From NCBI GenBank assembly GCA_001305115.1, contig BCAA01000001.1:124001-188000 (forward strand): DNA of 64,000 nt, in the 5' to 3' direction. Source of the DNA: Clostridia bacterium UC5.1-1E11. GTDB lineage: Bacteria > Bacillota > Clostridia > Oscillospirales > Acutalibacteraceae. The notes beneath the pieces were generated by a model. It had not been told where the DNA came from. It made no database searches and saw only the letters and a program-made list of their open reading frames with translations. Below are positions 13,740-58,567 of this stretch, piece after piece. Each line of letters starts with the position of its first letter. Within the stretch, counting starts at the first letter, position 1. The translations under genes were made by a program, and so were the position numbers.

Positions 13740-13754
13740 GATGATAATTTGAAT

Positions 13755-13960
13755 AGATGGATAGAGGTGCGGTTTTAAAGAGTATCACGCGGGAGGGTGC
13801 CAAAGCCCGGGAACGCCTGTGAAAGGGAAAACCGCCGAAGGAGAGCGGCGTTTGGCCGGCGTTCTTCTGGGGGCAGAGTGAAGAACGCTGCAACTGTCAT
13901 CATAGATTTATGATGGAGCGCTATCGGCAGTAAAGTCCGTAAGGAATACCGAGCAAGTTC
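13755..13960 (+). ncRNA. Lysine riboswitch (L box)
   Basis: The roughly 200-nt leader contains the hallmark L-box blocks in order: AGAGGTGCGG (13763-13772), AAGAGTA, GAAAGGGAAAACCGCCGAAG (about 13822-13841), a long stem-loop arm, then CTGTCATCATAGATTTATGA and TGGAGCGCTATC (to about 13925). The first gene after it is asd, followed by dapA and dapB, exactly the regulon expected for a lysine sensor. Ligand binding should favour the terminator just downstream and shut the operon off when lysine is plentiful. Confidence 0.93.
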
Positions 13961-23103: not shown

Positions 23104-23604
23104 TTGCCAGAATATGTACAGCATACATTGGCGCCTCTCTTTGATAAAAATTCCAAAGTCTTAATACTTGGCACAATGCCTTCTCCCAAAAGCCGAGCCT
23201 TTGGTTTTTATTACTCCCACCCACAAAATCGCTTTTGGCGTGTTCTGTCGGATGTATTCCAGCAGGCTTTGCCGGTTACAAATGATGAAAAGGCTGCTTT
23301 CTGCCTATACAATCATATTGCGCTTTGGGATGTGCTAAAAAGTTGCTCGATTGAAGGCGCTGACGATGGAAGTATCCGAGAACCGGTTGCAAATGACCTA
23401 TCCCCCTTGTTACAAAGTGTTCCTATCCGTACCATTTGTACAACAGGCACAAAAGCAGCCGCTCTTTACAAACGCTTATGCTTGCCCTCCACCGGACGGC
23501 CAGCCCTTGCACTGCCCTCCACGAGTCCGGCCAATTGCCGTCATTACCCCTACACACGACTCGTTGAGGCCTACGCTATTTTACCGGACTTATGTTTTCC
23601 TTAA
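23104..23604 (+). CDS. DNA-deoxyinosine (hypoxanthine-type) glycosylase of the uracil-DNA glycosylase superfamily
   Basis: Base-excision repair enzyme of 166 residues. The N-terminal motif VLILGTMPSPKSRAFGFYYS followed by HPQNRFW matches the active-site region of family 6 hypoxanthine/deoxyinosine glycosylases. HIALWDVLKSC and LPSTSPANC are also characteristic. The start is TTG at 23104, with AAAGGAGG upstream, 3 nt after the cca stop, so the two genes are likely cotranscribed and translationally coupled. Confidence 0.85.
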   Translation: MPEYVQHTLAPLFDKNSKVLILGTMPSPKSRAFGFYYSHPQNRFWRVLSDVFQQALPVTNDEKAAFCLYNHIALWDVLKSCSIEGADDGSIREPVANDLSPLLQSVPIRTICTTGTKAAALYKRLCLPSTGRPALALPSTSPANCRHYPYTRLVEAYAILPDLCFP

Positions 23605-23619
23605 CACCACTTTTGATAG

Positions 23620-23754
23620 AAGAGGGTGTCCCAAAACTACGAATCTTTCGATTCATGGAAAAGGGGCATCCTCTTTTTTGTTTGGAAAAATATCTGCGTT
23701 TCTAAAAAACGAAGAGATTCTTCCATCATTTCATGACCATTCGGACATCCTTTT
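23620..23754 (+). repeat. MITE-like element, copy A (degenerate right end)
   Basis: This stretch of about 135 bp matches the reverse complement of 54561-54694 almost base for base over its first 90 bp (AAGAGGGTGTCCCAAAACTA, then the GAATCTTTCGATTC palindrome, GGGGCATCCTCTTT and ATATCTGCGTTTCTAAAAAA). The left end is the intact terminal repeat; the right end (TTCGGACATCCTTTTC) is a decayed version of it. It contains no gene. It lies just after the glycosylase gene and may supply its terminator. Confidence 0.88.
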
Positions 23755-36757: not shown

Positions 36758-36762
36758 AAAAA

Positions 36763-37021
36763 ATAACGCAAGGAAAAAGGAAAGTAGCTTTTCCCCCAGC
36801 AGACAGAGAGGGCGCGCCACCGGCTGTAAGCGTGCTTGTGCATGAGAAAAGAGAAGTTCCCTTTGGAGCGGCGCGGTTGAAGGAGTTCTGGTAGGCCGCG
36901 ACGGTGGACCCCGTTATCGGTCAAAAAGCTGCACACCGCACGAAAACGGTGTGAATCAGGGTGGTACCGCGGAGCGTTTTACGCCTTCGTCCCTTTATTG
37001 AAGAGGGACGAAGGCTTTTTG
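36763..37021 (+). ncRNA. T-box leader of pheST (tRNA-Phe sensing)
   Basis: The T-box core GGTGGTACCGCG lies at 36960-36971. The terminator GCCTTCGTCCCT (36983-36994) against AGGGACGAAGGC, then TTTTT, competes with it. A TTC triplet in AGAAGTTCCC (36857-36859) fits the specifier codon for phenylalanine. Uncharged tRNA-Phe should favour antitermination and pheST expression. Confidence 0.92.
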
Positions 37022-53264: not shown

Positions 53265-54539
53265 CTACATATTCCCAGATTTCTTAATGCGCTCCCAATA
53301 CGCACGATAAGCCTGCTCCGTCTTATTCTCCCCATAATGATAATAATGAACCCCTTGCAAATTGTCGGGGAGATATTGCTGGGCAACCCAACTGTTCGGA
53401 TAATCGTGCGGATACTTGTAGAATTGCCCTTTATTGGGATTATCCGCTCCATCGTAATGATTGTTTTGCAGTTGACGGGGAATCGGCCCCGCCCTTCCCG
53501 CACGTACATCTTCAGCCGCAGCGAGTATCGCATCGTGCCCGCTATTGGATTTTGGTGCGTTGCACACCAAAAGAACTGCATCCGCCAAAGGAAACCGCGC
53601 TTCTGGCAATCCAACCATCAGGGCCGTATCCACCGCAGCCTTTACAATGGGGATGATCTGCGGATAAGCCAACCCTACATCTTCACTCGCGCATACCAAC
53701 AATCTCCTACACGCTGACGGGAGATCTCCTGCTTCCAACAGTCGCGCCAAATAGTGAATCGCCGCATCCGGGTCGGAGCCGCGCATTGACTTTTGGTATG
53801 CGGAAAGAATGTCGTAGTGTTCATCCCCTTCGCGGTCGTATTTCATTGCACTGCGTTGCGTCAACTCCCTAGCGCTCTCCAGAGAGACAAAACGGCTGTC
53901 GCCATTCCTCTCTTGTGCAGACAATGCACAGAGTTCTACTGCATTCATTGCTTTGCGTACATCTCCACCGCAGGCGGCAGCAATATGCTTTACAACTCCA
54001 TCCTCCAGCTGTAATGTACTGTGCAGGTCGTCTTCCATCAGGCCGAATGCCCGTTCAACCGCGCGGCAGACTTCCTCCGGCTGTACAGGCTTAAACTCAA
54101 ATACCGTGGAACGGCTTAGGATTGCATTGTACACATAAAAGTATGGATTTTCTGTCGTGGATGCGATCAATGTAATCTGCCCATTCTCGATAAACTCCAA
54201 AAGTGTCTGCTGTTGTTTCTTATTAAAGTACTGGATCTCATCTAAGTAGAGCAATACGCCGTTCACCGCGTCCAGCCGGTCCAAGCTGGCAACCACTTCG
54301 CGAATATCGGCGGTGGAAGCTGTGGTTCCATTCAATTTACAAAGCTTCCGATGGGTCTGCCTTGCAATGATGGAAGCCAATGTCGTTTTTCCTATACCGG
54401 AGGGGCCATAAAAAATCATGTTGGGAATTTCACCGGACGCAATGATTCTCCGCAGAGGCTTTCCCTCTCCAAGCAGGTGACGCTGGCCTACAATTTCATC
54501 CAGGGATTGCGGGCGAATACGATCCGCCAATGGGCGCAT
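53265..54539 (-). CDS. rarA: Replication-associated recombination protein A (RarA/MgsA ATPase)
   Basis: AAA+ ATPase that acts at stalled replication forks. The 424-residue protein begins RPLADRIRPQSLDEIVGQRH. Walker A is FYGPSGIGKTTLASIIA, Walker B is LLYLDEIQYF, and sensor 1 is LIASTTENPYF. The C-terminal block YLARLLEAGDLPSACRRLLV and the final Tyr-rich HYYHYGENKTEQAY are family features. The ATG at 54539 has AAAGGAGG upstream; longer readings run into the MITE. The element immediately upstream separates it from glyA, so its promoter may lie within or at the edge of the repeat. Confidence 0.94.
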   Translation of the reverse strand: MRPLADRIRPQSLDEIVGQRHLLGEGKPLRRIIASGEIPNMIFYGPSGIGKTTLASIIARQTHRKLCKLNGTTASTADIREVVASLDRLDAVNGVLLYLDEIQYFNKKQQQTLLEFIENGQITLIASTTENPYFYVYNAILSRSTVFEFKPVQPEEVCRAVERAFGLMEDDLHSTLQLEDGVVKHIAAACGGDVRKAMNAVELCALSAQERNGDSRFVSLESARELTQRSAMKYDREGDEHYDILSAYQKSMRGSDPDAAIHYLARLLEAGDLPSACRRLLVCASEDVGLAYPQIIPIVKAAVDTALMVGLPEARFPLADAVLLVCNAPKSNSGHDAILAAAEDVRAGRAGPIPRQLQNNHYDGADNPNKGQFYKYPHDYPNSWVAQQYLPDNLQGVHYYHYGENKTEQAYRAYWERIKKSGNM

Positions 54540-54560: not shown

Positions 54561-54694
54561 AAGAGGGTGTCCCAAAAGTCATGAAATGCCTTCAGGATAC
54601 CCTCGTTTTTTAGAAACGCAGATATTTTTTCAAACAGAAAGAGGATGCCCCTTTCCTATGAATCGAAAGATTCGTAGTTTTGGGACACCCTCTT
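54561..54694 (-). mobile_element. MITE-like element, copy B with perfect terminal inverted repeats
   Basis: This 134-bp element has 17-bp perfect terminal inverted repeats: AAGAGGGTGTCCCAAAA (54561-54577) and TTTTGGGACACCCTCTT (54678-54694). It matches 23620-23754 in opposite orientation. It has no coding capacity, so mobilisation in trans by a transposase with the same ends is inferred. It inserted between glyA and rarA, about 20 bp upstream of the rarA ATG. I did not detect a clear target-site duplication. Confidence 0.88.
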
Positions 54695-54727
54695 TTTGAT
54701 TCACTATTCGATGGAATGGAAACAAGC

Positions 54728-55981
54728 TTACGCATAAAGCGGATACCGCGCACAAATCTCACTGACCATGCTGCGGATCTTTTCTTTGCTGTTGTCGAAG
54801 TCATTGATTGCCAATGCGATACATTCTGCGATGGTGTCCATATCCGCTACCGTCAAACCACGGGTCGTGATAGCTGCTGTTCCCAGACGCAGGCCACTTG
54901 TGGTAAAGGGGCTGCGCTGCTCATTCGGAACCGTATTCTTGTTTGCAGTGATATACACCTCATCCAAACGATGTTCCAACTCCTTGCCTGTCAGTTCCTG
55001 GCCGCTGAGGTCCACCAACATGAGGTGATTATCGGTACCACCGGAAACGAGCTTCACACCGCGCTTGAGAAGTCCATCCGCCAAGGCAGAAGCATTCGCT
55101 ACAATGTCATGCGAATACTGTTTGAACTCCGGCTTCAAAGCTTCCCCAAAGCAAACCGCCTTGCCTGCAATGATGTGCATCAAAGGACCTCCCTGGGTGC
55201 CGGGGAAAATTGCCTTGTCGATCGCCTTCGCATACGCTTCTTTGCAAAGGATCATACCGCCGCGCGGACCGCGCAGGGTCTTATGGGTAGTTGTTGTCAC
55301 TACATCTGCATACGGGACCGGGTTGGGATGATCGCCGCCCGCCACCAGGCCGGCAATATGCGCCATATCGACCATGAAGAGCGCGCCACAGGCATCGCAG
55401 ATCTCACGGAATTTTGCGAAGTCAATCACTCTCGGGTAGGCGCTGGCGCCCGCGACAATCAGCTTTGGCTTTACCTGCATAGCCTGCTCATAAAGCTGGT
55501 TGTAGTCGATTCGGCCTGTCTCCGGACTGACGCCGTATGCGACAAAATTGAAATAACTTCCCGACATATTGACCGGGGAACCATGCGTCAGATGGCCGCC
55601 TTCCGCTAAGTTCATGCCCATAACCGTATCACCGGGCTTGAGCAACGCAAAATAAACCGCCAAGTTCGCCTGTGCACCCGCATGCGGCTGCACATTCGCA
55701 TGTTCTGCACCGAACAACTTGCATGCACGGTCACGCGCAATATTTTCAACGACGTCCACATATTCGCAACCGCCGTAGTACCGCTTTCCCGGATACCCCT
55801 CTGCATACTTATTGGTCAGTACACTGCCCATCGCGGCGAGCACCGCCGGGGAAACCATATTTTCGGAAGCGATCATTTCCAAATTTCGCTGCTGACGCTT
55901 AAATTCATCCTGCATGGCCGCGCCGACTTCGGGATCTGCCTGGGACACGAATCCAATCGTATCCATCATATCTTTGTACAT
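54728..55981 (-). CDS. glyA: Serine hydroxymethyltransferase
   Basis: PLP enzyme interconverting serine and glycine while loading tetrahydrofolate with a one-carbon unit. The 417-residue protein has [44 protein letters not shown] and the PLP-lysine block [19 protein letters not shown]. The ATG at 55981 lies 10-12 nt after AAGGAGAGG. The leader (55982-56100) has no glycine riboswitch that I can recognise. It is monocistronic or read towards rarA through the MITE. Confidence 0.97.
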
Positions 55982-58257: not shown

Positions 58258-58567
58258 ACCAAAATAAAACAGTTTAAAATCCGACGAGCAAAAGTAAGTA
58301 CCCTGTAAAACGGTGGCACAGAGAACCGGCGGATGGTGAAAAGCCGGGGCATACGATACAGGCGAATGGGTTTGTGAGGAGCGTGGAGAAAGGAATTTCT
58401 GAGTAACCATCGCCGTGGTTCCCGCGTTAAGGGAAAGGGTATTGAGGCAAAAGCTGCGTACCTGCATTGATTTTGCCGTGTACCTGTGACAAGCGGAACC
58501 AGTTGGTTTCGGAATTTGGGTGGCACCACGAGTCTATCGTCCCATGCGGATGATAGGCTCTTTTTAT
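58258..58567 (+). ncRNA. T-box leader of the trp operon (tRNA-Trp sensing)
   Basis: The T-box sequence TGGGTGGCACCACG lies at 58517-58530. The competing terminator GAGTCTATCGTCC pairs with GGATGATAGGCTC, then TTTTTATT (58530-58565). A candidate UGG specifier lies in GGCGAATGGG (58367-58369), consistent with tryptophan. Stem I elements (AGAGAACCGGCGGATGGTGA) precede it. Uncharged tRNA-Trp should switch the operon on. Confidence 0.9.

Follow-up and report, generated by a model that had tools for sequence, protein, structure and literature searches.

A short repeat of about 130 nt situated between glyA and rarA is found at 48 places in the genome of its host, a member of the Clostridia, and is better called a non-autonomous derivative of the IS1182 family, which would have lost its transposase gene by deletion and kept both ends. 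We consider it probable, at roughly three chances in four, that this deletion derivative is moved in trans and was inserted by inverted-repeat replacement, i.e. in exchange for hairpins at the target sites. According to this reading an IS1182-family insertion sequence would have retained both recognition ends along with its subterminal hairpins while losing the transposase. An IS1182-type transposase, not found in the assembly and perhaps lost, would then move the element in trans. The target hairpin, in many cases located at the end of a gene, would be deleted while the element ends are joined at its feet. The hairpins and T-runs carried by the element itself might leave the gene end terminator-like, and because the element brings these structures its insertions may be cheap for the host.

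The element was noticed in a stretch of 64,000 nucleotides, referred to here as the window. Copy 1 (54561-54694, plus strand, with a 130-nt core at 54563-54692) lies between glyA (serine hydroxymethyltransferase, 54728-55981, minus strand, PF00464 with 573 bits) and rarA (MgsA/RarA-type AAA ATPase, 53265-54539, minus strand, PF12002 with 206 bits). Its left terminal inverted repeat at 54561-54577 and the partner at 54678-54694 on the minus strand have arms of 17 nt that are 100% complementary and separated by 100 nt, which confirms the perfect 17-bp repeats of the preliminary description of this DNA. The 15-mer at 54563-54577 is the part common to IS1182-family elements. The element is built as a tandem pair of hairpins with a T-run behind each of them on the plus strand of the element, and the terminal inverted repeat consists of the outermost strands of these two hairpins. 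The left subterminal hairpin (54563-54604, plus strand, followed by a T-run at 54606-54611; -19.6 kcal/mol, z -5.2) matches three IS1182-family elements at their left end, and the right subterminal hairpin with its T-rich end (54636-54697, plus strand; -28.4 kcal/mol, z -6.7) matches the right end of three such elements. The second, inverted copy described earlier was recovered at 23622-23752 on the minus strand (C1:147622-147752 in the genome) with 86% identity to copy 1 across about 130 nt, the left end being decayed and the right end intact; a decayed end in one of the two copies had been described. Upstream of it lies a gene of the uracil-DNA glycosylase superfamily (23104-23604, plus strand, PF03167 with 49 bits). 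In the window alone the 15-bp end has 4 matches with up to 3 mismatches, a number reached by 13 of 100 shuffles and thus within chance. Rfam gave three matches in the window, none above the gathering score over either copy; they correspond to a lysine riboswitch and two T-box leaders (13754-13931, 36762-36997 and 58275-58547).

We determined the number of copies in the host assembly, which comprises 2,997,790 bases in 83 contigs and is 93% complete. The 15-bp end GAGGGTGTCCCAAAA, allowing a single mismatch, is present 64 times, including 35 exact occurrences, and the reversed control gave none. When copy 1 was compared with its own genome by blastn, at least 45 matches were obtained, at least 40 of them 104 nt or longer and of 85-100% identity; these figures are a lower bound, 40 of 72 candidates having been scored. 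A list built from individual loci contains 48 places, leaving out blast pieces shorter than 70-90 nt as well as a 300-bp variant (L071) and a solo hairpin (L076). The large family suspected from two copies in the window is therefore borne out by the genome-wide search. More than 120 nt could be aligned for 46 of the 48 copies; the two others (L063 and L078) gave shorter alignments, are absent from the 46-row alignment and had their sites judged by eye only. Since the mean identity is 89% to the consensus and 82% among copies, most copies are, by this measure, not young; the best pair shares 97%. The 300-bp variant (L071:1810-2119, C30:4317-4616 in the genome) consists of the two ends of the element enclosing a longer, different interior. 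Another copy, 79% identical to copy 1 (L075:1757-1887, C60:3256-3386), lies within an apparent frame of 507 codons whose reality is doubtful.

The ends of the element lead to complete insertion sequences in other genomes. Scanning genome contigs with GAGGGTGTCCCAAAASTCATG yielded 49 stretches, 30 of them titled Lachnospiraceae, and three (L155, L160 and L140; from Lachnospiraceae, Butyrivibrio and a Clostridia isolate) contain entire elements, 1749-1764 bp long, that are bounded on either side by the 15-mer; the two ends are exact in L155 and L160, and L140 has one right-end mismatch. Each carries a single transposase frame of about 511-518 aa. The transposases of two of the three match the IS1182 family model NF033551 with 447 and 433 bits at a cut-off of 270, as well as PF13751, PF05598 and PF01609. 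The consensus of the copies corresponds to the left 50 nt plus the right 80 nt of the three IS1182-family elements compared. Left-end scores were 62-71 against at most 21 for shuffles, with the first 21 nt built in by the search pattern; right-end scores, free of such selection, were 40-63 against at most 25. Each end of the consensus fits its own side of the insertion sequence better than the opposite side. The expectation that the ends should identify the helper transposase thus holds as far as IS1182-family elements of other Clostridia are concerned, and not for the genome of the host, where a full-length insertion sequence with these ends, also proposed earlier, was not found: no pair at insertion-sequence distance was seen in the list of 15-bp ends. 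A DUF772 search gave no match in the host genome (G000) or in three congeners (G001, G002 and G003), and no IS1182-type transposase protein was found in these four; distant matches occurred in 5 of 40 genomes. As the assembly is 93% complete, a helper may lie outside it, and even loss of the helper would be compatible with derivation from the IS1182 family.

The distribution of the element is narrow. Among 40 genomes searched, counting that of the host, the element occurs in two, the host and the congener G002, and it was not found in G001 and G003 of the same genus. The single copy in G002 is, together with its 20-base flanks, identical to a copy of the host (L009), and a stretch of 3130 bp around it (C6:110552-113683 in the host, L180 on contig C2 in G002) is 97.6% identical. 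As the other matches of the window to G002 are only about 74-82% identical, this suggests a recent exchange of the stretch between the two species. The congeners are otherwise without the element. The exact 15-mer end is present in one of 150 genomes of the family, that of the host (G002 is outside this sample). The consensus, compared with 394 genomes of the order, gave weak chance-like matches of 19-37 nt in 11 genomes besides that of the host, with two candidates scored per genome, and plasmid and phage collections contained no match to the element. The exact 15-mer was also present in 30 viral-contig stretches. These were set aside as chance because the right arm of the element, a second end within 200 nt and a transposase match were missing from all of them. 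Apart from the element, a segment of about 250 bp in the host (L190:5906-6166, C7:44405-44666) has dozens of matches of 72-80% in each of G002 and G003; one of its frames resembles the C-terminus of a protein, so that a domain shared by surface proteins may be involved.

We analyzed the insertion sites for target duplications. Exact flanking direct repeats of 5-9 bp were found at none of the 48 copies. Repeats of 3 and 4 bp flank 5 and 3 copies, respectively, with shuffled means of 4.6 and 1.3 and maxima of 11 and 4, so that no duplication stands out above shuffles, contrary to what the preliminary description had envisaged. Its label MITE fits in that the element is short, lacks a transposase gene, has terminal inverted repeats and is present in many copies; because the target site duplication is absent we do not file it as a strict MITE. 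The left flanks are rich in A (position -2 in 36 and position -1 in 31 of the 48 copies) and the right flanks are rich in T (position +1 in 41, position +2 in 39). Inspection by eye had suggested that at L008 and L014 the element had entered the loop of a hairpin whose arms stayed in place; this was rejected, flanking inverted matches being not above shuffles. With respect to the neighboring genes, convergent gene ends are preferred: 26 of 42 classifiable copies lie there, compared to 26 of 106 background gaps (Fisher p 4e-5). Divergent gaps are avoided, with 2 of 42 copies compared to 23 of 106 (p 0.014). The 42 contexts are the 48 copies minus four at edges and two within long ORFs; the ORFs come from a longest-first rule and not from a gene finder, and the 106 background gaps may include gaps bearing the element.

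Comparison with the congeners indicates what occupies these positions where the element is missing. The position taken by the element in the glyA/rarA gap is occupied in each of the three congeners by a GC-rich hairpin, whose stem is GCCGCACTG/CAGTGCGGC. Relative to G002 the flanks ACCGGAA and TTTTT join the element directly and the hairpin arms are gone. Expressing the fit as foot offset, i.e. the length of the own flank minus the distance to the hairpin foot, with hairpin cores hand-picked from folds, we obtained -1/+2 for G002, +1/+3 for G001 and +2/+3 for G003. In total 24 copies of the host were examined, 13 of which have both flanks anchored in a relative. Four of these were dropped for long or rearranged gaps (L189:443, L189:6259, L191:1437 and L191:11714), which leaves nine measured sites. 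At every one of them the relative carries a hairpin, and in each case it differs from the element, in contrast to the stretch being conserved at the same sites as an ordinary terminator or RNA, which the preliminary description had named as the opposing case. Both feet lie within 7 nt at three sites (glyA/rarA; L002 with -7/-1; L003 with +3/+4). At three further sites one foot lies within 3 nt (L190:14822 with -1/+14; L192:18533 with 0/+39; the site of copy 2 at 23622 with +3/+307, where G002 has a hairpin near the position of the copy), and at the remaining three (L190:1508, L190:5442 and L192:1471) neither foot fits. The pattern known from IS1272, a lost target hairpin with the element at its feet and no duplication, is accordingly seen at both feet in 3 of 9 sites. 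In five gaps with the element, four have a G002 hairpin by rule, and one of these four has another hairpin in the host, far from the element. Another hairpin within 80 nt accompanies 1 of the 48 copies; the same rule gave 15 of 43 element-free gaps, in stretches of other lengths.

The structures of the element were also assessed as potential terminators. A simple hairpin rule is passed by the left arm in 4 of 48 copies and by the right arm likewise in 4 of 48, and a simple terminator scanner reported neither copy in the window. Pair covariation is weak in the two hairpins, with 17 cells changed on both sides compared to 11.6 in shuffles (reached by 8 of 500) and a covariation score reached by 223 of 500, and it is absent in the terminal repeat. 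Covariation was therefore discarded as proof of a selected structure. As few arms pass the hairpin rule and covariation is weak or absent, the terminator function stays putative. The glyA/rarA hairpin of the relatives was likewise considered as a plain glyA terminator and rejected; it is called terminator-like only, because the T-run on that strand is short (3 in G002). Both genes read leftwards, and on their reading strand neither the element nor the congener hairpin has a long T-run. The inferred rarA start (54539) lies 21 nt from the element, in agreement with the distance of about 20 bp given before. The influence on rarA expression raised in the preliminary description is weakened, since the change amounts to a hairpin for a hairpin, one being already at that place in all three congeners examined. 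Judged from these sequences, a strong new effect on rarA would not be expected.

The missing hairpins could also be explained by ordinary transposition near tolerant gene ends, with the redundant old terminator decaying afterwards under selection and time. This is rather unlikely in our view, even though several observations agree with it. Gene-end hairpins keep their position without the element: of the 22 G002 hairpins in gaps free of the element, 12 are matched by a hairpin in the host and 10 are not, and for 7 of the 12 the positions on either side agree to within 5 nt. Because both occur at element-free gaps, kept position and loss of gene-end hairpins are not peculiar to the element. Moreover, most copies are old, with 89% mean identity to the consensus, and 3 of 9 sites fit neither foot. 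Ordinary insertion is, however, at odds with the lack of 5-9 bp direct repeats at all 48 copies, and at glyA/rarA the flanks align up to both feet with no arm of the hairpin of the three congeners remaining. The matched transposase family also includes IS1272, a published inverted-repeat replacer.

Far less probable than decay is that the element serves the host as a regulatory or terminator RNA repeat, REP-like or attenuator-like, which is copied for its function and without a transposase. Folding of the whole element is strong (z -7.4 and -6.1 on the two strands) and its gene-end position would suit such a repeat, but the similarity to complete insertion sequences takes in the ends as well as the two subterminal regions, no Rfam family covers either copy and covariation is weak. 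Furthermore the congeners lack the element except for one exchanged stretch and have different hairpins at the nine sites. We give just as little credence to another IS family of this genome, with similar tips, as the source of the mobilizing transposase. Such a helper would account for a copy pair of 97% identity in an assembly in which no IS1182-type transposase was found, yet the match to the IS1182 family spans 50 and 80 nt with left and right kept apart, and no end pair at insertion-sequence distance was seen in the list for this genome. Insertion of a non-autonomous IS1182 derivative by replacement of hairpins remains the reading we prefer.

Left ends occur on their own as well. Among the 49 stretches found with GAGGGTGTCCCAAAASTCATG, transposase matches are present in 5, and in 11 the contig stops no more than about 140 nt from the tip. 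This leaves 33 stretches, and 29 of them show a hairpin partner at a distance of 34-42 nt inward, with neither a transposase nor the right arm of the element; the same distance rule was satisfied by 1 of the 30 viral stretches (L100). Visual inspection indicates that at least three of these 29 (L132, L136 and L138) retain more IS sequence, and the rest resemble free-standing hairpins of about 44 nt in many Clostridia genomes (L112-L160). The host has one such solo hairpin at about L189:9646-9690 (C2, about 118045-118090) in a region of -39.7 kcal/mol (z -9.1), and G002 has another hairpin at this site. The left hairpin alone may be able to move, possibly as an even smaller mobile unit. As a tentative extension, the element and the left hairpin of about 44 nt (about 26-29 of the 49 left-end loci, once in this genome) might form a family of mobile terminators that spread by exchanging gene-end hairpins; we regard this as possible but doubtful.

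The proposed insertion mode has precedents in staphylococci. IS1272, a member of the IS1182 family, has been reported by Wan et al. 2017 (PMC5678879) to replace inverted repeats without target duplication; in the model proposed there, the element ends are joined to a cruciform at its 3' feet. TnSha1 is reported to delete target hairpins in part, and 5 of 7 targets were confirmed as terminators by RNA-seq (Furi et al. 2016, PMC4923244). The element studied here resembles IS1272 and TnSha1/TnSha2 of Staphylococcus in the transposase family of its helper, the inverted-repeat tips, the lack of target duplication and the loss of a target hairpin, often a terminator (PMC5678879, PMC4923244). Unlike these autonomous or composite elements it is non-autonomous and 130 nt long, and it populates 48 places of a distant Firmicute genome in which no helper was found. 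With the IS1182-family elements L155, L160 and L140 it shares the 15-bp tips and the left and right subterminal hairpin regions, while these are 1749-1764 bp long and carry a transposase gene. A survey lists IS1182 among the families over-represented between convergent genes (PMC9208149). Bacterial MITEs are likewise short, free of a transposase gene, present in many copies, and flanked by terminal inverted repeats with ends common to an insertion sequence, but they are described as making target duplications (PMC3049150), none of which were found here. SPRITE of Streptococcus pneumoniae is, by description, also comparable, being a terminator-like repeat enriched at gene ends with target duplication not established; it differs in consisting of a single 18-bp duplex with AAAA/TTTT ends (PMC3049150). 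Among the papers found, detailed inverted-repeat replacement concerns IS1272 and transposons built on it. The accessible text of a 2024 MITE review (PMC10969869) contains no mention of IS1182 or IS1272, and the titles and abstract openings of the open-licence papers searched hold no description of a non-autonomous family using this mode of insertion.

With its 48 non-autonomous copies, this genome from another Firmicute lineage represents a large natural sample of the mechanism. It suggests a cheap way of spreading for a mobile element, which would occupy the place of a gene-end hairpin and bring a hairpin of its own. This could help to account for terminator-like repeats that are located at gene ends without target duplications. 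If the family of mobile terminators considered above exists, transposition would drive the turnover of terminators, and orphan repeats such as SPRITE could be its products.
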